From positions 62,001 through 126,000 of IMG/VR virus record IMGVR_UViG_3300035181_000471: 64,000 bases of DNA; one strand, given 5' to 3'. Source of the stretch: a virus. Positions within the stretch are counted from its first letter, which is position 1, and the number at the start of each line of letters is the position of its first letter. Of the stretch, positions 6,908 to 55,452 are shown piece by piece. The position numbers and the translations under genes were made by a program. Under the pieces are notes generated by a model, which saw nothing but the letters and a program-made list of their open reading frames with translations, searched no databases and was not told where the DNA came from.

Positions 6908-7603
6908 CTAGACTTCTTTGATTCGAACGATAAGACCATCCTTGTTGGTGATAAGGTAGAAATCATCGTATTCATAGCTAGTTTTGGGATAGAGGGGGTC
7001 ATGGATAGTCGTGGTGCTGAGGTGCGGTCCCAGATGAATCTGTGCATCCTTAATGGAGGTTTCTGACACAGTAATGAGATACATAGAAGGGAGCAACAAG
7101 ATTCTAGAGATCCCGGTTTTCGAGCCTCTCGTATAGAATTTCTCAATTTTAACTGGTTCCACGACTTTAGCACTGAGTTGCTTGGCTGGCTTATTAGCTA
7201 CAGTTGGGACGCGAGACTTAATCGGCAGAGTAGGAAGGATATAACCAGCCAAGCCGTGCTTAACTGCTCCAATTTCCTGCATCACCAGTCCGATATCTGC
7301 CCTACGGAGGGTCATACCGACACTGGTGGAGATATCGTTACAGAACATATGAAGCTGTCTGACATTACGGTTAAGGTAATAGCCGTTCCCGCTAGGAAGC
7401 GGAGAGAACTCTTCAATCACATTTTCCTTAATTTCTTTCAGGACAAGTCGAAAAAGAGCCTCAGTCTTCTTAGCGTCAGCTTGAATGGACTTGGCCTTTT
7501 CCAACTTGGCCTTAGCCTTTACTTCCTCAGCCTGCCACTTAGTAATTAGCTCCTGACAAACAATTGGAGTAGTCCGATTCTTAATACGAGTGCGGGTTCC
7601 CAT
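6908..7603 (-). CDS. unknown protein, 231 residues
   Basis: Not recognised. The N-terminal 65 residues are basic and helical (repeated KAKAKLEKAKSIQADAKK) and could form a coiled coil or bind nucleic acid; the rest is mixed alpha/beta with no membrane segment. The ATG overlaps the stop of the DUF2786 gene (TAATG), so translation is probably coupled. Confidence 0.75.
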   Translation of the reverse strand: MGTRTRIKNRTTPIVCQELITKWQAEEVKAKAKLEKAKSIQADAKKTEALFRLVLKEIKENVIEEFSPLPSGNGYYLNRNVRQLHMFCNDISTSVGMTLRRADIGLVMQEIGAVKHGLAGYILPTLPIKSRVPTVANKPAKQLSAKVVEPVKIEKFYTRGSKTGISRILLLPSMYLITVSETSIKDAQIHLGPHLSTTTIHDPLYPKTSYEYDDFYLITNKDGLIVRIKEV

Positions 7604-8346
7604 TACCTGACTCCCAAAGTGGAGGTGGCTGTCTTGATGCGACCACGGTTATTCATATCCAGATTTCGACCAGTGGCCTGACCCTTGCTGTAAGCATCAC
7701 GGTCAATGTTACACTTAATAGAAGATGCAGAGCGAAGTTTACCAACGGTATCCTTGATGAAAGTATCAACCTGCTCACCCTGCTTTTCCAGCTTCATCAG
7801 AGCATACTGAGAACCACCCTTGAAGGCTTCTGCCTTAGTGGTGTTCAAGCGAGTGCGAATAGCGGTGGCGGCACCAAGATACCACGAATTTGCGTAAACC
7901 TTGCCCTGTCCAGAAGGAGCAAGGCGGGTAAGCTGGGTGATGGCGTAGGCCAGCAAGAAGCGAACATTGGCGATGTCGCTGGGACGGCCAAAGATCACGG
8001 TCTTTTTGCCACGCTGACCACCCATCTGGAAACCCTGACCACCGTAGTTAACTAGGCGGCAGTTATTGGCGGTAGCCAAAGCGCCTGCAAGAATGGCCTT
8101 CCAGCTAGCGATACGGCCAGCCAGGAAGAGAGGCTCGGCGTCCTGGATAATCGGCTCTTCGAAAGCCTTGGACTCCTCTTCGGAGAGTTCGGCCATCGTG
8201 AGCTTGTGCTTGTGAATGAGGGCTTGAGCCATAGACATGGCGGATTCGGCCTCGTGCTGGTTAGAGCTAGAAGCCGTTGCAAGAAGCTTGTTGATCCGCT
8301 CCTTGATGGTGGTCATATTAGGTGTAGCGGTAGTGGTCTCAGCCAT
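7603..8346 (-). CDS. DUF2786-domain protein
   Basis: A 247-residue protein. Residues 16-55 (IKERINKLLATASSSNQHEA, then AMSMAQALIHKHKLTMAEL) match the helical DUF2786 module common in phage and bacterial proteins of unknown role. The C-terminal part is basic, including QRGKKTVIFGRPSDIANVRF. GGAGGC lies nine bases upstream of the ATG. This ribosome binding site is also the arm of a perfect inverted repeat that encloses the promoter box (8355-8396). Confidence 0.82.
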   Translation of the reverse strand: MAETTTATPNMTTIKERINKLLATASSSNQHEAESAMSMAQALIHKHKLTMAELSEEESKAFEEPIIQDAEPLFLAGRIASWKAILAGALATANNCRLVNYGGQGFQMGGQRGKKTVIFGRPSDIANVRFLLAYAITQLTRLAPSGQGKVYANSWYLGAATAIRTRLNTTKAEAFKGGSQYALMKLEKQGEQVDTFIKDTVGKLRSASSIKCNIDRDAYSKGQATGRNLDMNNRGRIKTATSTLGVR

Positions 8347-8354
8347 GTGGTAGT

Positions 8355-8396
8355 GCCTCCAGAATGATTATACCACTCTGGAGGCTATTCCTTACC
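8355..8396 (-). promoter_or_regulatory. promoter inside a perfect inverted repeat that includes the RBS
   Basis: GCCTCCAGA (8355-8363) and TCTGGAGGC (8377-8385) are perfect complements, with GTATAAT (8367-8373, minus) in the loop. GGTAAGGAAT (8387-8396, minus) lies at about -35. On the minus strand the predicted transcript start falls at the beginning of the downstream arm, which carries the GGAGG of the DUF2786 gene. Confidence 0.7.
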
Positions 8397-9540: not shown

Positions 9541-9873
9541 TTAGCTGTTTACGAGTGTAGAATACGGGATGTGCTGAACCTTGTAGACATGGTTCTTCAA
9601 GAGATTAACCATGTTCCTGGCCCCCACGATGTTCATAGAGTGGACCACAACCTGATAAGGCGGATTCTCAGAGATGGCCTTAGCCAACTCATAGCCATCG
9701 GGGTAATTAAGACCCAAATCATGGTCCAAAAACATAACATCCCACTTTTCAGCGATACGAACAAGAGCATCGGTACCGTCAGAGTAGTGAATGTCATGAC
9801 CCTGTTTAGACAACATGGCCTCAATCTTCACAAAGCGGGGATGTTCATCGTCAATGACGAGGATACGAGCCAT
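9541..9873 (-). CDS. receiver-fold protein, cREC (cyclic-phosphate processing receiver) type
   Basis: A 110-residue stand-alone receiver fold: ILVIDDEHPRF at the first strand, DVMFLDHDLG at the second acidic strand, and VVHSMNIVGARNM near the end. The HDLG and HSMNxxGxxNM signatures are those of the cREC family, proposed to handle cyclic phosphate RNA ends in RNA repair loci, not of ordinary two-component regulators. It lies immediately upstream of the Rnl1-type ligase, which supports that reading. No kinase or output domain is present. Confidence 0.8.
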   Translation of the reverse strand: MARILVIDDEHPRFVKIEAMLSKQGHDIHYSDGTDALVRIAEKWDVMFLDHDLGLNYPDGYELAKAISENPPYQVVVHSMNIVGARNMVNLLKNHVYKVQHIPYSTLVNS

Positions 9874-9886
9874 GATTACCTCCAGT

Positions 9887-9912
9887 AGCCTATTATACCT
9901 TATTTTGTGGAG
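9887..9912 (-). promoter_or_regulatory. GTATAAT promoter-like site for the cREC/ligase pair
   Basis: GTATAAT on the minus strand (9892-9898) lies about 20 bases upstream of the cREC start. A short TGGAG (9908-9912)/CTCCA (9880-9884) repeat flanks it, weaker than at 8355, 11317 or 12276. It overlaps the 3' end of the upstream small gene. Confidence 0.5.
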
Positions 9913-10046
9913 TTCTTTTCCAGAATTTCTTTGGCTTCCTCAATTAGTTTGGGGTTAGAGAGTAATTCTAGGAGGCATTTGGACTTATGGATGGTTCCCA
10001 GATAGTCGCTGGTGAGGAGGTGCTTAAGAATGTCTTTCACTTCCAT
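9900..10046 (-). CDS. small protein, 48 residues, unknown
   Basis: Reads MEVKDILKHLLTS at the start and ends EILEKNSTK; helical and charged, no known domain. Its ATG overlaps the TAA of the upstream Zn/OB protein gene (TAATG), the coupling style used throughout this strand, which supports it as a real gene. Confidence 0.6.
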   Translation of the reverse strand: MEVKDILKHLLTSDYLGTIHKSKCLLELLSNPKLIEEAKEILEKNSTK

Positions 10047-11308
10047 TAGGCCACCTCCTCAATGAGTTCCAGTTTGCAGCGGGTCAGGATGGTCTGGGGG
10101 ACATCCTTGTAGTTGTCCAGCTTCTTGATCTTGCCAGTGATACGAACCTTGCTGAACTTGTGCAGATCGTTGTAGTTGCAGTTCACGAAGTCAAAAGAGC
10201 TAGTGAACCAAGTGGCAACACCCTTTGCACCCTGGACTTTGATCAGATAGGAAACACCAAACTCAGTGCTGAAGGTGGTAGTGAAAGCAATCTCGCCCTC
10301 CAGCGTGACCTTCTCGCCAATCTCACCCAGATACATGAAGGAGCAGATGGGGAGTTCCTGGGTCTCAGTGGGGGCCTTGTCCTTGCCCTCAGCTTCGAAG
10401 CCGACACCGATGAGGGTCAGGTACTTCTGAGCAGCGATAGCAGCCATAGCGGGGGAGCAAGTGCTGTCCACGATGGAGGAGCGCAGGTTGGAGGAGAAGA
10501 GGTCAGTCACAGCGTAACCATTCAGAAAGTAATCCTGAAGGGCAGAGAACTGCTTGTTGATCATTTCCCGATTTTCAGAGAAGAAAGTGTGAAGGGTGGG
10601 GGTTTTCTTAGTGTAGCCAGGAGTGTTAGGAGCCAGGTAATAGCTGGTGAGTTCCAAAGCCTCGTTAGCAGTGGAGTTATCAAACTTACTGCCAACGAAA
10701 CCACGACTCTGAACAGAAGCGAGAGCGGTGAGGATGAAGTAGTTAGCCCACAACATCTCAGCGGCACGGTGATCACGGTAACCACGCTCTTCCTCGCAGA
10801 AGTTGGTGAAGCAGGTCATGGCCTTCAGGAAGTTCTCGATACCGATACCATACCACTCCTTAGCGCAAGTGGCACCGATGGTGACAAGCTTCTCGTCTTT
10901 CTTGAAGATGTAGAGAGCGTTACGGCGGCGATTGGTGTTGCAATGATCGCAGTTGCTCTTGCGGTCCTTGATCATGTTGAACAGGATTTCATCGTATGTG
11001 TCAGAGGTTTCGTCAGCCTTGAAAATACGGTTGCCAGCTTCGTCAGAACCGAAGTCCAGACGAGCGATGAAAGTGGTGCCGTCCACGCCAACGCGATCAA
11101 TGGGAATGATCAGATCGAGCTTGTGGACCAGGACACGGCGATTGCGCTCATTGCCGTTTTCGTCAACCTGCGTGTAGGTGACATATTCTTCGGTGTGATT
11201 GGTCTGTTCGACCTCAGCATACCCGAATTTCACGAGCTTCTTGTTGATTTTGGCACAACGCTCGTTGAAGTGAGTCATCGAGGTGGTTTCAATCTTCACG
11301 ATAGCCAT
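10046..11308 (-). CDS. Zn-finger protein with C-terminal OB-like domain, possible ssDNA-binding protein
   Basis: 420 residues. A C-x2-C pair (CDHC, 120-123) with a further Cys at 148 (GATCAKEW) suggests a zinc knuckle around residues 115-155. The C-terminal ~95 residues (VTLEGEI, YLIKVQGAKGVATWF, KVRITGKIKKLDNYKDVPQT, ILTRCKLELI) have the strand pattern and the ITGKIKK-YKDVPQT-LTRCK ending seen in phage and plasmid OB-fold proteins. Single-stranded nucleic-acid binding is inferred. GGAGG is nine bases upstream, within the inverted repeat at 11317-11345. Confidence 0.7.
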   Translation of the reverse strand: MAIVKIETTSMTHFNERCAKINKKLVKFGYAEVEQTNHTEEYVTYTQVDENGNERNRRVLVHKLDLIIPIDRVGVDGTTFIARLDFGSDEAGNRIFKADETSDTYDEILFNMIKDRKSNCDHCNTNRRRNALYIFKKDEKLVTIGATCAKEWYGIGIENFLKAMTCFTNFCEEERGYRDHRAAEMLWANYFILTALASVQSRGFVGSKFDNSTANEALELTSYYLAPNTPGYTKKTPTLHTFFSENREMINKQFSALQDYFLNGYAVTDLFSSNLRSSIVDSTCSPAMAAIAAQKYLTLIGVGFEAEGKDKAPTETQELPICSFMYLGEIGEKVTLEGEIAFTTTFSTEFGVSYLIKVQGAKGVATWFTSSFDFVNCNYNDLHKFSKVRITGKIKKLDNYKDVPQTILTRCKLELIEEVA

Positions 11309-11316
11309 AGGTTACT

Positions 11317-11359
11317 GCCTCCACAAGTATTATACCAGGGGAGGCGGTAGATTTCTACC
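11317..11359 (-). promoter_or_regulatory. promoter inside an inverted repeat that includes the RBS
   Basis: GCCTCC (11317-11322) pairs with GGAGGC (11340-11345), with GTATAAT (11329-11335, minus) between. GGTAGAAAT (11351-11359, minus) is at about -35 and is itself part of a small palindrome, GGTAGA-TT-TCTACC. The downstream arm is the RBS of the 10046-11308 gene. Confidence 0.68.
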
Positions 11360-11943: not shown

Positions 11944-12276
11944 TTAAACAAGGCGATCAGGGAAGCAGTTGTCATAAGCTTTACGAACCGTATCAGCCAG
12001 GACATCCACATACACTTCAACGGCTTCGTATTTGTAGTTACGGACTGAGGCGTTCTTACCACGGCCCATCTTGTATGAATTCACTTCGTAGATGTCCTTG
12101 CCAGCGTCCAGAAGGATCTCAACATAAATCCCCTTGGTGCAGACATAGGTAAGACCGTCCATACCCTTGTGGGTCATGGCAATGGACTTTTTGGCACCAA
12201 TGTAGGCACGGCACCAGTAATCGAGAGCGTTGATCTGACGGTTGATCTCGGTTGCTACTTCCAAGGTGTTGGACAT
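11944..12276 (-). CDS. unknown protein, 110 residues
   Basis: Begins MSNTLEVATEINRQINALDYW; a mixed alpha/beta soluble protein with no recognised domain. The ATG at 12276 follows GGAGGGAC; a GTG at 12288 would place the RBS inside the gene. The RBS is an arm of the 11-bp perfect inverted repeat around the promoter. Confidence 0.72.
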   Translation of the reverse strand: MSNTLEVATEINRQINALDYWCRAYIGAKKSIAMTHKGMDGLTYVCTKGIYVEILLDAGKDIYEVNSYKMGRGKNASVRNYKYEAVEVYVDVLADTVRKAYDNCFPDRLV

Positions 12277-12322
12277 TTGTCCCTCCACAGCTATTATACC
12301 GAAGGAGGGACAAATTTCTACC
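12276..12322 (-). promoter_or_regulatory. promoter inside an 11-bp perfect inverted repeat that includes the RBS
   Basis: TTTGTCCCTCC (12276-12286) and GGAGGGACAAA (12304-12314) are perfect complements; GTATAAT (12293-12299, minus) is in the 17-base loop and GGTAGAAATT (12313-12322, minus) is at about -35. The predicted start of transcription is near 12286, exactly where the RBS-containing arm begins. Confidence 0.75.
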
Positions 12323-13537: not shown

Positions 13538-13545
13538 ATTATACC
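13538..13545 (-). promoter_or_regulatory. GTATAAT promoter-like box for the HD hydrolase
   Basis: GGTATAAT on the minus strand, followed by AAGGAGG. It lies immediately downstream of a terminator hairpin, so it would restart transcription. No clear inverted repeat surrounds it. Confidence 0.5.
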
Positions 13546-23357: not shown

Positions 23358-23368
23358 TGTTCGTCCTC

Positions 23369-23408
23369 CTAGCCTCACCTTATTATACTGGTTTTAAGAG
23401 GAAGCTAG
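23369..23408 (-). promoter_or_regulatory. GTATAAT promoter flanked by an imperfect inverted repeat
   Basis: CTAGCCTC (23369-23376) faces GAGGAAGCTAG (23398-23408), complementary apart from a three-base bulge, with GTATAAT on the minus strand between them. It lies between the Ig-repeat gene and the 22719-23357 gene. Confidence 0.52.
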
Positions 23409-26400
23409 GGCAGATTTCTTTCCAGAGTAGACAGGGTAGGCCACAATAATTGGAATAGTGCGAGTTATGGTGGGATCGGCAACGGAGGTTGCGGTGATGT
23501 AGGCTGGGTCACCCAATGGGTGGGCCACCGATGGTGCAGTCCAGTAGATGAAGTTATCTGGGGAGTTGGAGGTGGAAACAGAGAGGTTCCCAACACTACA
23601 GGTCCAACTTACAGAGGTATCTACGCAGTAAGTAGCTGTTGCGCTAATCTTTGTGACAGAATTGACTAGAACAATGGCGGTGTTTGATGCGGCAACACCT
23701 GGAACGGTTGGGCCGTTAAGAATAACGGTTGGGACGGTTACAGTGACATCCACAGAGGTATGATCACCTGCGGCGTTAGTCACAGTCAGGGTGAAGACAT
23801 TAGATTTAGCAGTCAAAGGCCCGGTATCGTAGCCTTGACCACTTCTTATGATGCTGGGGTTTCCAGGGAGTGTTGGAGTGATTGTTGCAGTTCCAGAGGC
23901 AAAAACAGGGGTTAGAACGGCAAATCCACCGTAATTGGGGGAGGTGGCGGAGAACGAGGAGATCTCTCCGGCCCCCACTACGGTAATAACACAATCAGCG
24001 TATTTAGTTGGATCAATGACTGAAGTTGCTCTCAGAACACTGGTCCCGACTGTAGAAGCGTTGTAGGTATTTCCGTTTGAAACAGACCCTACCCCGGATG
24101 CGATAGACCAAGTTACAGAGGTATTAACTGCTCCGGTCACAGTGGCAGGCGTTGTGAAGGTAGTTCCAATCGTCAAGACCTTAGTCGCTAGAACAGTCAC
24201 TACAACGGGAGTCATCGTTACAGTAGCGGAGGCAGACTTGGAGGGATCAGCAACAGAGGTTGCGGTGACAGTCAGCGTATTTCCAGGAACCGAAGTTAGA
24301 GGTGCTGTGAACTGGCCCGAGGCGTTAATTGTGCCATAGGTAGTAGACCAGATGACCGAAGTGTCTACGGCTCCGGTTACAGAGGATGCGAAGGTAGCCG
24401 ACTCTCCTGCTAGTAGGGTCTTCGTTGTAGGTAGGACTGAAACAGAAACAGTCTGAGGAGTTACCGTTAGACTTCGTTGGGTGCTTCCAGAAATGGCATT
24501 TGTAGCGGTGAGAGTGAAAGTAACTGCGGTTAGGGTGGCGGTTCTAGGTGCAGTTGGGGTCCCAGAGGTCACGGCTCCAACACCCTGATTGACAGATCCA
24601 GTTCCTCCAGAGAAGGTGGCGGTTAGGGTGTAGGTTTGGCCGACCTGAGGAGAGACTACGGAACTAGTGAACCCTGAAATTACAGGAAGATTGACCACTG
24701 TGACAGCGGAGGTTCCTGACTTGGCGGGGTTAGCTGTGGATGTGGCCCTAACAGTTGCAATTCCACCCGAGGGTGAGGTAGCTGGGGCAGTATACACACC
24801 ACTAGAGTTAACGGTTCCATAGGTTGCTCCACCATCTACTGACCAAGTGACTCCCTGTAGCCCTACGACTGCACCAGAAACGGTTGGAGTGAGGGTGGTG
24901 GTGCCGTTGATGGCAACAGAGGTAGAGGTTGGTGCTACAGAGACAGTGATGGCACTAACCGTCATGGTGATAGTAGCAGATTTGGTTGCGTCAGCTACGG
25001 ATGTTGCTCTGACTACGGTTCCTGTTCCGGTTCCAGCGGTGTATACACCACCTACGGTGATAGAACCATTAACAGCCGAAGCTCCTCCATCAATGGACCA
25101 AGTTACAGCGGTGTTTACTGCGTTGGTGACGGTTGCTGAGCAGTTAGTTGTCTCTCCGGCAAGAAGAGTGGTTTTTACTGCGGAAGCAGAGATGGTGACG
25201 GTTGGAATGGTGATTACACAAGTGGCGTTCTTTGTAGGATCAGACACGGATGCGGCATAGATGGTGTAAGTTCCTGGTACGGCTGGTGCTACGAAAACAG
25301 CGGTGGTGGCACTAGGCGTTAGACCACTCCCTACAGTGGCTACAGACCAAGTTACGGTGTTGTCTGTAGCCCCTGTTACCGTTGCGGTTAAATTGACGGT
25401 TCCGCCAACTTGAGGTGAGGCGGTAGTTGGGGACACGGCCACTGACACGGTTTGAGGAGTGATGGTAACGGATGGAGCATCATAAACAACCCCAGCTAAG
25501 CTGGTAACCCTCAAATAGTAGGTGATGGGAGAAGTAAATCCGCCAGTCTGAACAGCGATGCTAACACCAGTTGCGGCATTAGCAGAAATGTCGCTCCCAC
25601 CTAAGGTAGTTCCAATAATCGCAGAAGAACCGTTGTGAGTTGGAGTGATGGTTACATTGGTAGCACCTCTTAGCGGAGCTAGGGTTGAAGCGGCTAGAGA
25701 TCCAGTTGGAGATGCGGCTGTGACAACAGTTAGATCACCAGTTCCGCTATTGGAGCTATTTTTAGCGGCGTTGGCAACAGAGGTGGCACGGATTGTGGCG
25801 GTTCCGGTTGAAGTGGGAGTGAATTGGTTTCCAACCCAACTTCCAGTTACGCCTGTGTGGGACCAAGTTACGGTGGTATCCACGGCTCCAGTCACGGTTG
25901 CACTGTAGGACTTAGTGGTATTGACTCCAATGGCCCCAGCAGGAGTAGGAGTCCCTACAACTACAAGCTGAGGGGTGATAGTTACAGATGCAGTCGTAGA
26001 GGCACCGACTACATTAGTCACTGTTAGAGTGTAAGTGATGGGCGCAGACCCAGATTGAACAGGGTTTGTAGGTAGAGTTGGAGTGGCCTTGTCAACACCA
26101 GAAGAGATTGCACCAATTCCGTTATCGACAGTTGCAGTTCCACCACCAGGAGCGGTGTATACGCCGTTCAAGTTTACTGAAGCACCATGCAAGGGAGTTA
26201 AGGAGGAGGAGGTGAAGCTAGAAATGGTGGGTGGTGCCCAAGCCGTTACGGTCACAGTTCTAGTTACAGAAGTTCCTGCGGCATTTGTGGCCGTTAAAGT
26301 GTATGTGGTTGCGGCACTACTTGGAGGAGTGACAATCGTACTGGAATTAACTCCGACAGACCCGACACCCTGATTGATAGAGGCCGAAGTAGCTCCGGTA

Positions 26401-30829: not shown

Positions 30830-31342
30830 TTAAGAAGTTGTTTCACAAAGAACATGAAACTTCTCCATCAGGTTCCAGCGGAAACTTCGAACAGGCTGGA
30901 TCAGAGGCATTCCTGCCTCGTCAGGAGTTCTGTCGGCCTTCTTCTGGTTACACTTGAAGCAACACGCAACCAAGTTACCAGGGTTGCTACCACCTCCACG
31001 GCTACGAGGGATAACATGGTCAATTGTAGTAGCCTTAGGGCCATCGGGACCGCAATATTGGCAGATGTGCTTGTCACGCTCCAGGATTCCACGGAAACCT
31101 CGACCAACAGTGATCTTCGACTCCTTCACAGCCTGGGCGTGAGGATAGATGATCACCTTGAAGTCTGAGAAGGTGTCCATTTCGGACCATGCAGATCGAG
31201 ACCAGCTAGGTAGGTTTAGAACCTCTGCTCTTTCTGTAACTAGAGCCTTAACTGCGTGTCTACGAGTAACGGTCATCATGGGAATGAAATTCCGGTCCAC
31301 GGCGATGATCTGCTCTCCCATATTTTTCTTCCGCTTGTCCAT
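30830..31342 (-). CDS. HNH endonuclease
   Basis: 170 residues. The C-terminal half has the HNH core: CQYCG, TIDHVIPRSRGG, NLVACCFKCNQKK, with paired CxxC zinc ligands. The N-terminal half (VDRNFIPMMTVTRRHAVKAL) resembles the strand-helix lead of a widespread free-standing HNH family. GAGG lies about seven bases before the ATG at 31342; a TTG at 31378 has no RBS. Possibly a homing or packaging-type nuclease. Confidence 0.88.
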   Translation of the reverse strand: MDKRKKNMGEQIIAVDRNFIPMMTVTRRHAVKALVTERAEVLNLPSWSRSAWSEMDTFSDFKVIIYPHAQAVKESKITVGRGFRGILERDKHICQYCGPDGPKATTIDHVIPRSRGGGSNPGNLVACCFKCNQKKADRTPDEAGMPLIQPVRSFRWNLMEKFHVLCETTS

Positions 31343-31383
31343 AGAGTTACCTCGTTCTCTTTTAAAGGAGAACTCCAAAGTCG

Positions 31384-31433
31384 ATCTTTGGAGCCTCTAT
31401 CTATTATACCAAGGCTCCAAAGATTTTCTTACC
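31384..31433 (-). promoter_or_regulatory. promoter inside a 13-bp perfect inverted repeat
   Basis: ATCTTTGGAGCCT (31384-31396) and AGGCTCCAAAGAT (31412-31424) are perfect complements; GTATAAT (31403-31409, minus) sits in the 15-base loop and GGTAAGAAAA (31424-31433, minus) is at about -35. Here the downstream arm is not the RBS of the HNH gene, which lies about 35 bases further on. Confidence 0.7.
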
Positions 31434-34982: not shown

Positions 34983-34989
34983 ATTATAC
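34983..34989 (-). promoter_or_regulatory. GTATAAT promoter-like box
   Basis: GGTATAAT on the minus strand 15 bases upstream of the ligase-like gene at 34378-34968. No inverted repeat surrounds this one. Confidence 0.48.
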
Positions 34990-36513: not shown

Positions 36514-36543
36514 ATTATACCAGGGTGGCCCCAGAATCCTACC
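36514..36543 (-). promoter_or_regulatory. GTATAAT promoter with GGTAGGATTC upstream element
   Basis: GTATAAT (36514-36520, minus) with GGTAGGATT (36534-36543) at about -35. Flanking GCCTCC and GGTGGC are nearly, but not fully, complementary. Confidence 0.58.
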
Positions 36544-37109: not shown

Positions 37110-37117
37110 ATTATACC
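37110..37117 (-). promoter_or_regulatory. GTATAAT promoter-like box
   Basis: CGGTATAAT on the minus strand, upstream of GGAGGT and the HAD-like gene, and immediately after the terminator hairpin at 37130-37167. Confidence 0.5.
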
Positions 37118-42479: not shown

Positions 42480-45178
42480 TCCTTCCCTAATACTTCATTC
42501 CACAGATTTTTGACAGCTTCAATGACGGTTGAAGTCTGAAGTTGAGCCATACAGCCATGTTTGGGGAAGTCATAGGTCTGACCGGGAGGATTGTCGCAGG
42601 GTCCAAGAGGGTGGATGGTCATGCGAGGATCTTCCTTAAAGCAAGGTTGACAGGGTAAGCCCACGGATAGGTTCGTGTTCTGTTCATAGCCTGCGGCTGA
42701 CGGCTGTGTGGAACCCCACAGGATGACGGCTGGGGTCTTAACCATGTTAGTCACATGGTTGGAGAAAGAGTCGATGCCTACATGGATTGTAGCGTTGGCA
42801 ATGAGCTTCACGGAATCCATTAAGGGGTTACCTAGGAAGCTGTGGACGGCTCCAGGAATCTTGGGGTCGTTCTCTGCACCAATCTGAATAAAAGTGATCT
42901 CAGGGCAAGCGGCTACTACCTCAGCCCAACGCTCTTGTGACCAATCCTTATAGTGAGACCAGCCAGCCTTGGTGTGAAGGGTTGCGTATTTCTTAGTGCT
43001 TGGGAGCGGGTACTTGGCTTCCAGTGAGTAGATCTTAGGTTCGATTCCCACTTCATCAGAGAAGTACTCTAGGAGGTGTCGCTTCATAGGTGTGTATGGG
43101 TAGTTCTCGTGAAGAGGGTATCCGACAAGGTTGATTGCCTTATCAAACTTAGAGGCATCAAATTCATTGAAGTCTCTAACCTCGTCTACTCCAGCGTCTT
43201 TCATAAGTTCAAACAAGGCAGAGCCGATGGAAGGGTGACAGAAGTAGGAGATCTTCTGTCCTGGATTTTGCTTTTTCAACTCGGGAATTAGGTTTAGGGT
43301 CATGATGATGTCCCCAATAGCGCCGGGACGATTTAAAGCTATGCCATTCAACTTCTTTACCACCTTAGACTTGAGATAGTCGAGGTGCTGGTCCCAACTG
43401 GCGTCCTCTACTCCGATGGCTTCCTTAGCCTGCTCCGCGCAATTGATGGCGTCTTGGGTTTTCCCAAGGTTATCGTAGCAGAAAGTCATGATTCGGAGAG
43501 GCTGATCAGTGTATTTATTCATTTCCCTCCAAAGTTGTGTTGGAGCGGGTTTGTTATTTTTTGCCATCAAACATGCGGAAATGCACTTCTCCCACTCGCC
43601 TGAATCGGAGAAGATGTAAGCTAGTTCCATCCAGAATTCAGACCAATCGGGTTGATGACTGATGGCTTCATAGAGGGTGGCGGTAGCTCCAGCTACATCA
43701 CGATTTGCTCTCTGGCATCTAGCTTTGTAGAGATAGGAAAACAGCCACTCATCGTAGAAAAAATGGCCCATCTTGATGCGCTCAGTGTAATATTGAACAG
43801 CTTCGGGCCATCTACCAGCGTCCTTATGGGTGTTAGCTAGATAGAATGCGGTTCTTGAGTTGGGATTCTCCTCCCATTCTTTTTCAAGAATGCGAAGGTT
43901 TCTCTGGTTGGAAGACTCACCTGGATTTGGTGCGCCATCGTGATGAATTATACAATCGCTGATGACGAAAGTGTGACTGTCCCCAAGAACGGGATACTCA
44001 TGAATAGCACCTTCAAAATGAATGCCCTTACGAGTTTTCCACATGCGATGATGAACCCATTTGACATCAGTCTCCATCATTACTCCGAAGGCATCATACT
44101 CATTTAAGTATAAAGCTCTCTTGAGATTCTGGGGAGTCTTGAGAATGTCATCAGCGTCCATCCAAAGAAGGTAGTCGGCATCAGGATAGGAGTCAATGAT
44201 GTTTACAAACTCGTTTCTGGCCTTGGCGAAGTCCCAGAGCTTCCAATCGCGCTTGGTGTCCAGCTTAGAGGCACCTAGATATTGAGTTACAAAAGCTCCT
44301 CTTTCCCTAGCTACCTGAACTGTCCTATCGGTTGAACCCGTGTCGATGATAACCACACCATCCGTCACATTTTTGATAGAGTCAAGGCACTTTGGAAGGT
44401 CTCTCTCTTCATTCTTGACAATCATTCCGGTGTAGAGCTTTGGCTTCTTCTTCAAGGGTTTCAGAACTATATCACCCTGACCAGCACCATCCATAGGACC
44501 ATACCACTCAATTGTGAACTGATCTTGAGCCTGAACTAGCAACTCAAGAATACTAGAGAAGGAATGGAAGAATGGATGGATGGTGAAGTGGCCTGAGGTT
44601 AGGTCTCTCTCAAAGCCGCTGACATTGTGCTGAGGCAATCTGAGGAACAGAATACCATCATCGGTCAGAAGCTTCTTTAACTTCTTGAGAGTCTCTAAGG
44701 GGTTATACATATGCTCAAAACAATGAATCATTGTGATGAGATCAAACTTATTTGTCTTCGTCCAATCCGTTATGGTTTCCTCTGAAATTTGCTCAAAGTC
44801 GGCCATTAACATTGGGACATCTAGCTCCTTTGAATACTCAGGAACTATCTCGATGTTATCCATGCCGTAGGCTTCACAACCTCTGTTTTTGAAGCAATGA
44901 GCTAGGTAGGGATACTTGGAACCAATGTCGAGTGTTTTGATGGGTTGATTGTTGAACCAGCGTTCCAGAATGCTTCCGGCAAGCCAATCGTTTACACCCT
45001 TTTCGTAATCTGACATAAGGTGTCCAGCGAAATCCCCATTGACTTTTTCGTGGTCAGCTTCATAAACCTTTTCGGTCATCGGCTGTTGATACCAGCAATC
45101 GCAGGAGGGACAAACCCAGTAAGGTGTGTCCTGAAACTTAGCGGTAGATTCTGTTCTACAAATGGGGCAAATACCCAT
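42476..45178 (-). CDS. multidomain methyltransferase - GT2 - TPR - GT9 glycan enzyme
   Basis: 900 residues. A Zn finger (CPIC/CPSC, residues 4-26) and a SAM methyltransferase domain (KTLDIGSKYP, FDLITMIHCFEHMYNP) occupy 1-240. A GT2-type glycosyltransferase follows at about 250-430 (TGMIVKNEERDLPKC, VIIDTGSTDRT, DYLLWMDADDIL). Helical TPR-like repeats fill about 440-620. A heptosyltransferase-like GT9 domain ends the protein (NRPGAIGDIIMTLNLIP, HTKAGWSHYKDW, VGIDSFSNHV). This combination could glycosylate phage virion proteins or the host surface; the target is unknown. GGAGT precedes the ATG. Confidence 0.85.
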   Translation of the reverse strand: MGICPICRTESTAKFQDTPYWVCPSCDCWYQQPMTEKVYEADHEKVNGDFAGHLMSDYEKGVNDWLAGSILERWFNNQPIKTLDIGSKYPYLAHCFKNRGCEAYGMDNIEIVPEYSKELDVPMLMADFEQISEETITDWTKTNKFDLITMIHCFEHMYNPLETLKKLKKLLTDDGILFLRLPQHNVSGFERDLTSGHFTIHPFFHSFSSILELLVQAQDQFTIEWYGPMDGAGQGDIVLKPLKKKPKLYTGMIVKNEERDLPKCLDSIKNVTDGVVIIDTGSTDRTVQVARERGAFVTQYLGASKLDTKRDWKLWDFAKARNEFVNIIDSYPDADYLLWMDADDILKTPQNLKRALYLNEYDAFGVMMETDVKWVHHRMWKTRKGIHFEGAIHEYPVLGDSHTFVISDCIIHHDGAPNPGESSNQRNLRILEKEWEENPNSRTAFYLANTHKDAGRWPEAVQYYTERIKMGHFFYDEWLFSYLYKARCQRANRDVAGATATLYEAISHQPDWSEFWMELAYIFSDSGEWEKCISACLMAKNNKPAPTQLWREMNKYTDQPLRIMTFCYDNLGKTQDAINCAEQAKEAIGVEDASWDQHLDYLKSKVVKKLNGIALNRPGAIGDIIMTLNLIPELKKQNPGQKISYFCHPSIGSALFELMKDAGVDEVRDFNEFDASKFDKAINLVGYPLHENYPYTPMKRHLLEYFSDEVGIEPKIYSLEAKYPLPSTKKYATLHTKAGWSHYKDWSQERWAEVVAACPEITFIQIGAENDPKIPGAVHSFLGNPLMDSVKLIANATIHVGIDSFSNHVTNMVKTPAVILWGSTQPSAAGYEQNTNLSVGLPCQPCFKEDPRMTIHPLGPCDNPPGQTYDFPKHGCMAQLQTSTVIEAVKNLWNEVLGKE

Positions 45179-47718: not shown

Positions 47719-48221
47719 TGCTACCTCCAGTGAAGGAAGAGATACCCATCGAGCTTAAGGGCTACAAATTCATATTCAGGCGTATGACCTGGAAGGAGTC
47801 TCTATCCAACACCAAGAAGTTTTCTAAGTTGGAGGTGATGGCTACCGCCCTTCACTCTGTAGCCGGGACTCCGATGAACTACGAGGACGCATTCAAGGTC
47901 TTGAAGTCCTTACCCATCCCCATTCAAGAGAGGCTTTACATCATCTACATGGGCTCCCAGGATGACAGACGCCTTCTTACTGCCCCAATCCCTTGGTCGG
48001 CACCTGAAGCCGTGGAATTCAAGGCTGAGTTGGAAAGGGAAGAGGCGCAGAAGGATGAAATGCTCAGTGATGTAGAAGAGAGCTTTGCCAAACAGTTCGG
48101 GAAGCAGGCGTTGAAGGACGAAATGGAACTCAGTCGTGAGATCATCAGGAACTCCGGTTACAAGGGTGCAGTTTTGAAGGAAAAGTCGGAATTGAATAAT
48201 GATGGGTGGAGCGATGAGTAG
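47718..48221 (+). CDS. probable tail assembly protein, 167 residues
   Basis: Begins MLPPVKEEIPIELKGYKFIF. The beta lead, the FRRMTWKES segment and the highly charged C-terminal helix (ELEREEAQKDEMLSDVEESF) recall tail assembly chaperone-type proteins. The position upstream of the tape measure supports a tail role. Not firmly assigned. Confidence 0.6.
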   Translation: MLPPVKEEIPIELKGYKFIFRRMTWKESLSNTKKFSKLEVMATALHSVAGTPMNYEDAFKVLKSLPIPIQERLYIIYMGSQDDRRLLTAPIPWSAPEAVEFKAELEREEAQKDEMLSDVEESFAKQFGKQALKDEMELSREIIRNSGYKGAVLKEKSELNNDGWSDE

Positions 48222-54480: not shown

Positions 54481-55452
54481 ATGTCAGATATTCTATTCCC
54501 AACAGATTATGACCTAACCACCGCGCAAAGAGTGGGGCTACTTCCCATTCGTGGGGAAAAGAGAATCATTCCCGTTGATGTTGGAGTGACAGGGGAGGAT
54601 GATGAAACGGCCATTAGTGCCATTTCCAATGTAAAGGCCACCCTAACCGACTATGTGACCGTCAGACTCCTAAACAGAAAAGGTGAAAACTATGTCTACC
54701 GTTTCCTAGTCAACCCTAAAACTATTTCAGTCGCTCACCAGACCTTAGACTCACATTCCATGACCAGAGCCGGGTGGCAGTTTGGGGTATGGGGGGAGGA
54801 CACCATCGACCTCCACATCTCTGGCTCCACCGCAGGGCAATACCACTTCAACGGAACCACTGACGCATTTGAAGAATTCAGTATTAGTTATAGAAACATC
54901 ATGGAGTTAATGAATCTTTTTGAAAACAATGGCTATACCTTTGAAGGAGATGATCTTAACTCAACGAATGTATTTGCCGCCGACTTTACTAGACGAAGAA
55001 TTAAATATCACCAGGATGTTGAATTAAAAGTTGGAAACTTCATCTGGAGAGGGATGTTCACTACTATGAGTCTCTCTAGCACAGCCGACACCCCCTACTA
55101 CAACAAGTTTGATCTCGGTTTTCTAGCTTGGAAGGAAGACTATAAGAAGGAATCTCCTTGGAGAAGTCCCATCGTAAATAGTGTCTACAGAGGCCACTCC
55201 AAAGAAGTTCTTGATATGCTAGAAGCAAAAGCACAGCAAGAGGCGGAATACGCTGCTGATGCCGCCGCCAAAGAAGAATCTGCAAAGCAGTCAGATGCCG
55301 CCATTCAAAACGAGATTCTAACTCAAGGTATTCAACAAGGTATCGTGGACCCAAGAACCGCCTTTGGTCAAACATCCTACAACAATCAAACCCCTCTCAT
55401 CGCAGACGCATTAGTTCGTATGCAGTTATTTGGGTCAGAAGGAAACTTATAA
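54481..55452 (+). CDS. baseplate/tail protein, 323 residues
   Basis: Beta-rich with a helical Ala-rich C-terminus (ALEAKAQQEAEYAADAAAKE-like). The central segment MTRAGWQFGVWGEDTIDLHI-SGSTAGQYHFNG aligns by eye with the C-terminal domain of the preceding protein (TRTGFHMTFWGMEPDTIT-GSGSTGVFMNQFG). Likely a related subunit near the baseplate hub. Confidence 0.68.
   Translation: MSDILFPTDYDLTTAQRVGLLPIRGEKRIIPVDVGVTGEDDETAISAISNVKATLTDYVTVRLLNRKGENYVYRFLVNPKTISVAHQTLDSHSMTRAGWQFGVWGEDTIDLHISGSTAGQYHFNGTTDAFEEFSISYRNIMELMNLFENNGYTFEGDDLNSTNVFAADFTRRRIKYHQDVELKVGNFIWRGMFTTMSLSSTADTPYYNKFDLGFLAWKEDYKKESPWRSPIVNSVYRGHSKEVLDMLEAKAQQEAEYAADAAAKEESAKQSDAAIQNEILTQGIQQGIVDPRTAFGQTSYNNQTPLIADALVRMQLFGSEGNL

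Follow-up and report, generated by a model that had tools for sequence, protein, structure and literature searches.

Putative promoters placed within predicted start-hiding hairpins in a phage record and its cultured relative Tunturi_5

Inverted repeats around GTATAAT in the window

The window analysed here is a 64-kb stretch (positions 62,001-126,000) of the 221-kb phage record IMGVR_UViG_3300035181_000471 (G000). Coordinates refer to the window unless a genome is named, and the window features listed by coordinate are on the minus strand. The first-pass annotation had reported inverted repeats at 12276, 8355 and 11317, with a minus-strand GTATAAT box in the loop and the RBS as downstream arm. 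At all three sites the arms do enclose the box, and GGAGG falls within the downstream arm.

The repeat at 12275-12315 is a perfect match of 12 bp (arms 12275-12286 and 12304-12315); its presence was correctly reported, its length had been given as 11 bp. The downstream arm, GGAGGGACAAAT (12275-12286), holds a GGAGG SD, with 12286 as the predicted +1, and reaches into the ATG at 12276. The -10 box GTATAAT (12293-12299) lies in the loop, six nucleotides before GGAGG, and the upstream arm, ATTTGTCCCTCC (12304-12315; shuffle p=0.002-0.003), lies inside the putative promoter spacer. Next to it is a -35-like element, GGTAGAAA (12315-12322), and GTAAGAAA or GGTAGAAA recurs at sibling promoters. The gene behind this hairpin (11944-12276) encodes 110 aa of unknown function, with no PHROG match and no relative among phages or in IMG/VR. 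The SD fits the ATG at 12276; the list of open reading frames begins the gene at GTG 12288.

The second repeat (8355-8385) is 9 bp and perfect, as reported (shuffle p=0.001-0.003). Its downstream arm TCTGGAGGC (8355-8363) contains the SD and the predicted +1 at 8360, the box GTATAAT lies in the loop (8367-8373), and the upstream arm is GCCTCCAGA (8377-8385). The gene behind it (7603-8346) belongs to phrog_421, of unknown function. The third (11317-11345) is the reported 6 bp perfect repeat, with the SD-bearing arm GGAGGC (11317-11322; predicted +1 at 11322), the box at 11329-11335 and the upstream arm GCCTCC (11340-11345); taken alone it is unremarkable (shuffle p=0.05-0.07). It precedes a gene (10046-11308) of phrog_2319, a remote homologue of Tunturi_5 ORF318, which is annotated as RecT-like. 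No close relatives of window proteins 11308, 8346 and 12288 were found in IMG/VR. In each of the three repeats TATAAT stands six bases before GGAGG, so that the first G of GGAGG is where a normal +1 would fall, in line with the earlier prediction of a transcript start at the RBS arm.

Two further sites were absent from the first-pass annotation. At 23368-23409, arms CCTAGCTTC (23401-23409) and GAGGCTAGG (23368-23376) form nine pairs including one G-U (p=0.04-0.05) around GTATAAT at 23382-23388, and the gene starts at GTG 23357. At 31384-31424, 13-bp arms (31412-31424 and 31384-31396) surround GTATAAT at 31403-31409, with GTAAGAAA at 31425-31432. The latter site precedes an HNH endonuclease gene (30830-31342; 170 aa, ATG at 31342) matching PHROG HNH families with E-values down to 6e-24. 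Here the promoter-like box is in the loop, and the SD stands some 30 nt past the hairpin instead of in its downstream arm, so that at the HNH gene the hairpin may not hide the SD directly. A second copy of CTTTGGAG (31373-31380) can pair with the same arm of this hairpin in promoter-initiated RNA. The stretch 31373-31424 holds three alternating CTTTGGAG/CTCCAAAG copies, and two mutually exclusive stems are possible. A putative promoter thus lies between an upstream arm and an RBS arm at four window sites, and at many sites in relatives, the arm at 31409 not being an RBS.

The window contains 19 copies of GTATAAT where 4.7 are expected, and the minus strand carries 17 of them. Among 7-mers upstream of minus-strand genes GTATAAT ranks first, typically standing about six bases before GGAGG and the start codon; the plus-strand half shows no enrichment of it. 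The -35-like GTAAGAAA or GGTAGAAA is often found 23-25 nt upstream of TATAAT. Across the 221-kb record, GTATAAT precedes GGAGG by 3-12 nt at 14 sites, compared with none for the reversed control pattern. When perfect inverted repeats with a stem of at least 9 and a loop of 9-26 were counted in the record, TATAAT was in the loop of 4 of 28 (0.13 expected). Upstream anti-SD stretches of at least 6 bp accompany 4 of 11 SD sites behind GTATAAT, compared with 7 of 152 other SD sites.

A convincing hairpin accompanies no more than about a third of the GTATAAT-SD promoters in this phage, some 4-6 of roughly 15. The proposal of a repeated genome-wide device therefore fails for this genome and holds for Tunturi_5 (below). 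Among the same-class promoters, that at 9892-9898, before a receiver-like gene (9541-9873), has only a weak 5-bp anti-SD (p=0.20); those at 36514-36520, 37110-37116 and 34983-34989 have no significant hairpin, and that at 13538-13544 has none, its upstream structure being a terminator. Other -10 spellings in this phage yielded one more hairpin (G000 33260).

The only Rfam families that reached the gathering score in the window were tRNAs. A large tRNA cluster of the record includes a minus-strand tRNA with a CTA anticodon ('Pyl'; G000 54603-54680), a possible amber suppressor, and TAG is the stop codon of 7 of 73 long reading frames. At G000 215864-215912 and 47940-47990 the record has hairpins that resemble terminators, each with a T-run and with TATTAT as part of its loop; the former is preceded by GTAAGAAA.

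Locus-specific pairing and its distribution among relatives

The large terminase is 45.5% identical to that of Tunturi_5 over 100% of the protein, and through it we reached related IMG/VR contigs and Tunturi_5 itself, a cultured jumbo phage of Tunturiibacter (Acidobacteriota) (PMC11924767). The text of that paper contains neither the word 'promoter' nor 'hairpin'. No DNA similarity to this record was found in the phage collection, no closer relatives of the phage were found in the collections searched, and a scan of IMG/VR for the promoter pattern gave 10 matches without convincing copies of promoter plus hairpin. Both this phage and Tunturi_5 encode sigma factors; the sigma factor match in this record (G000 43267-43935, minus strand) has an E-value of 7e-29 at 34% identity. 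In its terminase and in having a sigma factor gene this phage agrees with the Tunturi_5-like jumbo phages. The sigma factor gene itself spans G000 43249-44061 (minus strand), and its G004 orthologue lies behind a GTATAAT promoter.

The arms had been said to differ between loci and yet stay complementary. We let each upstream region pair in turn with all downstream regions of its own genome, and swapping the arms in this way weakened the pairing (P=0.0008; 34 promoters on six contigs, comprising this phage and five related contigs), which bears out the claim. The 95 other GTATAAT sites had no excess over shuffles (Fisher 0.18, compared with 1.5e-5 at promoters). For this phage alone the swap P varied with window length (0.145, 0.0024 and 0.047): the first test, with long windows, was not significant (P=0.145), and the windows limited to the start region were chosen post hoc, the same approach then being applied to the other genomes and the controls.

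Predicted folding agrees with the proposal that the SD is hidden in read-through RNA and exposed in RNA from the local promoter. The unpaired fraction of the SD was 0.00 in read-through RNA at the three reported sites, compared with 0.48 (12275-12315), 0.33 (8355-8385) and 0.52 (11317-11345) in promoter-initiated RNA. Folding predicts a closed SD in read-through RNA and a more open one in promoter-initiated RNA at most strong sites. The difference is not seen everywhere: the predicted opening is small at some hairpin sites (0.26 at Tunturi_5 218497, none at G006 311768).

Strong examples of the arrangement occur in relatives at G004 92872, G004 117293 (dCMP deaminase), G006 4767 (16 bp) and G006 311768. 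Window gene 10046-11308 shares it with the orthologue at G006 311740, the two differing in their arms (GCCTCC/GGAGGC at 11317, AATCTCC/GGAGATT in G006), each pair of which is complementary. At one locus CCTCC/GGAGG is kept in three phages while the adjoining spacer has diverged; at another, one of two phages has lost the pairing. Where compared, G003 is a duplicate of G004 and so contributes no covariation. Conservation of complementarity in related phages is therefore mixed: two loci keep the hairpin, one loses it, and most orthologues of the hairpin genes are without one, so that the device is more widely shared than its positions. A different SD-hiding hairpin, TACACACCTC..GAGGTGTGTA, ends at an ATG in both G006 (200830) and G007 (33229), with no promoter in its loop.

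Pairing and putative leaderless starts in Tunturi_5

The corresponding box in Tunturi_5 is GGTATTAG, with about 59 such promoters. In 16 of the 59 the distance from GTATTA to an ATG is exactly 12 nt (binomial 7e-16), and GAGG or GGAG is found at 12-14 nt in 21 instances. These positions suggest that transcripts start at the start codon or the SD; judged by this spacing, GGTATTAG transcripts seem to begin at the SD or, at the 16 sites, at the ATG itself (leaderless). In the putatively leaderless cases it is the start codon that lies in the downstream arm, as at a helicase gene (GTATTA 74268) and a MarR gene (60173).

At the 44 start-adjacent promoters of Tunturi_5, own-arm pairing amounted to -672 kcal/mol, compared with -500 +/- 21 kcal/mol for swapped arms, about 8 s.d. 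beyond the swapped arms and at the limit of the test (P=5e-5). This is a much stronger effect than in the window's phage and the five related contigs. The excess was -4.5 kcal/mol per site for promoters near a start and -1.2 for the rest (p=0.009). A second promoter-like class of Tunturi_5 (PP885688), TTCATCTTTGG...GTAGGTTG with 27 sites, showed no excess over shuffles (Fisher 0.57) and a marginal swap result (z -1.7), and the pairing is nearly restricted to one class. The control class was drawn from a repeated TTCATCTTTGG-N10-GGTTTGTAGGTTGAG that stands immediately before genes at about 27 sites in PP885688.

A model for translation that depends on the local promoter

These observations are probably best explained by the logic known from T4 genes e, soc and 49, I-TevI and mobE, as far as sequence and predicted folding can tell. 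We infer from them that the boxes are promoters, where exactly transcripts start, that read-through RNA exists, and how translation and its timing are affected. The promoter would sit between the two arms, and the downstream arm would contain the signal for translation to start: the SD or also, in the case of Tunturi_5, the start codon of leaderless genes. RNA reading through from an upstream promoter would carry both arms, fold and hide the start. RNA from the local promoter would begin with the first nucleotide of the SD or start codon, lack the upstream arm and be translatable. The gene would answer to its own promoter and be insulated from read-through; it is probably translated only when that promoter made the message. 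As to timing, our guess is that a promoter class used by a phage sigma factor lies inside transcripts of another class. Against this model, most promoters of the class in this phage have no good hairpin, nor do most orthologues.

An unlikely but more serious alternative is that the repeats act as DNA palindromes, either binding sites or a promoter-opening feature (operator or cruciform), with the overlap with the SD arising from compact promoters. The arms are centred near the -10 box, the Tunturi_5 consensus carries a C-rich GCCcCC stretch in its spacer, and promoters away from a start retain a slight pairing excess (P=0.047). Strand asymmetry (G-U versus A-C mismatches) gave no signal (p=0.42 and 0.95), so RNA pairing cannot be separated from DNA pairing by strand. 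However, arm sequences vary by locus, which argues against one operator, and pairing is concentrated at start-adjacent promoters and nearly absent from the second Tunturi_5 class. This evidence from location favours RNA over a DNA palindrome.

It is very improbable that composition, a C-rich spacer opposite a G-rich SD, produced the pairing without selection. Many spacers do contain the anti-SD CCTCC, and the pairing of upstream regions with the SDs of other loci is fairly good, but the swap tests preserve the composition of both sides and nevertheless give P=0.0008 and 5e-5, which largely refutes this explanation, and stems reach 12-16 bp. Least credible is that the hairpins are terminators or attenuators of the upstream operon with an incidental promoter: two stem-loops of the record with TATTAT in the loop do end in a T-run (G000 47960 and 215890), but the SD or start codon forms the downstream arm, and we rejected this reading for the window sites as no T-run follows the stem at any of them.

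The preferred, T4-like reading also fits in anatomy, as the first-pass annotation had suggested (PMC3014915, PMC2988022). T4 genes e, soc and 49 have been reviewed (PMC3014915), with genes 25, 26 and 39 also listed (PMC2988022), and the structure at gene e lowers lysozyme synthesis about 100-fold (PMC3014915). As at those genes, local transcripts would lack the upstream arm and read-through RNA would hide the SD. T4 uses gp55 late promoters, TATAAATA, at few genes, whereas the sites here, in a non-T4 lineage, have GTATAAT and a -35-like element or, in Tunturi_5, GGTATTAG; TATAAATA occurs three times in the 221-kb record and at none of the hairpin sites. T4 late promoters given the same test had no excess pairing as a class (z -0.5), with e, I-TevII and I-TevIII ranking near the top. 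In Tunturi_5 pairing at GGTATTAG promoters marks the whole class. The homing endonuclease genes I-TevI/II/III, segB and mobE of Aeromonas phage Aeh1 likewise have a promoter within or beside an RBS-hiding hairpin (PMC2988022), and the HNH endonuclease gene at 31342 also has its promoter in a hairpin loop. It differs in that its SD lies outside the 31384-31424 hairpin and that the short RNA could form an alternative stem. What is new relative to T4 is the different promoter, the class-wide use in Tunturi_5 and, probably, the hiding of leaderless start codons as well.

The earlier reading is thus partly supported: it names the right kind of mechanism, claims too much for this genome and finds better support in Tunturi_5. 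For Tunturi_5-like jumbo phages we consider the chances evenly balanced that one promoter class is systematically coupled to start-hiding hairpins, leaderless start codons included, so that translation reads out the promoter, with a second class lacking the coupling. Tunturi_5 and its host, Tunturiibacter psychrotolerans X4BP1, are in culture, which makes this directly testable. Control of leaderless genes would be unusual because they have no leader for a regulator. In T4 the arrangement is a special trick at few genes; should a jumbo-phage lineage apply it to an entire promoter class, it would offer compact genomes a general, terminator-free way of keeping genes silent on read-through RNA.
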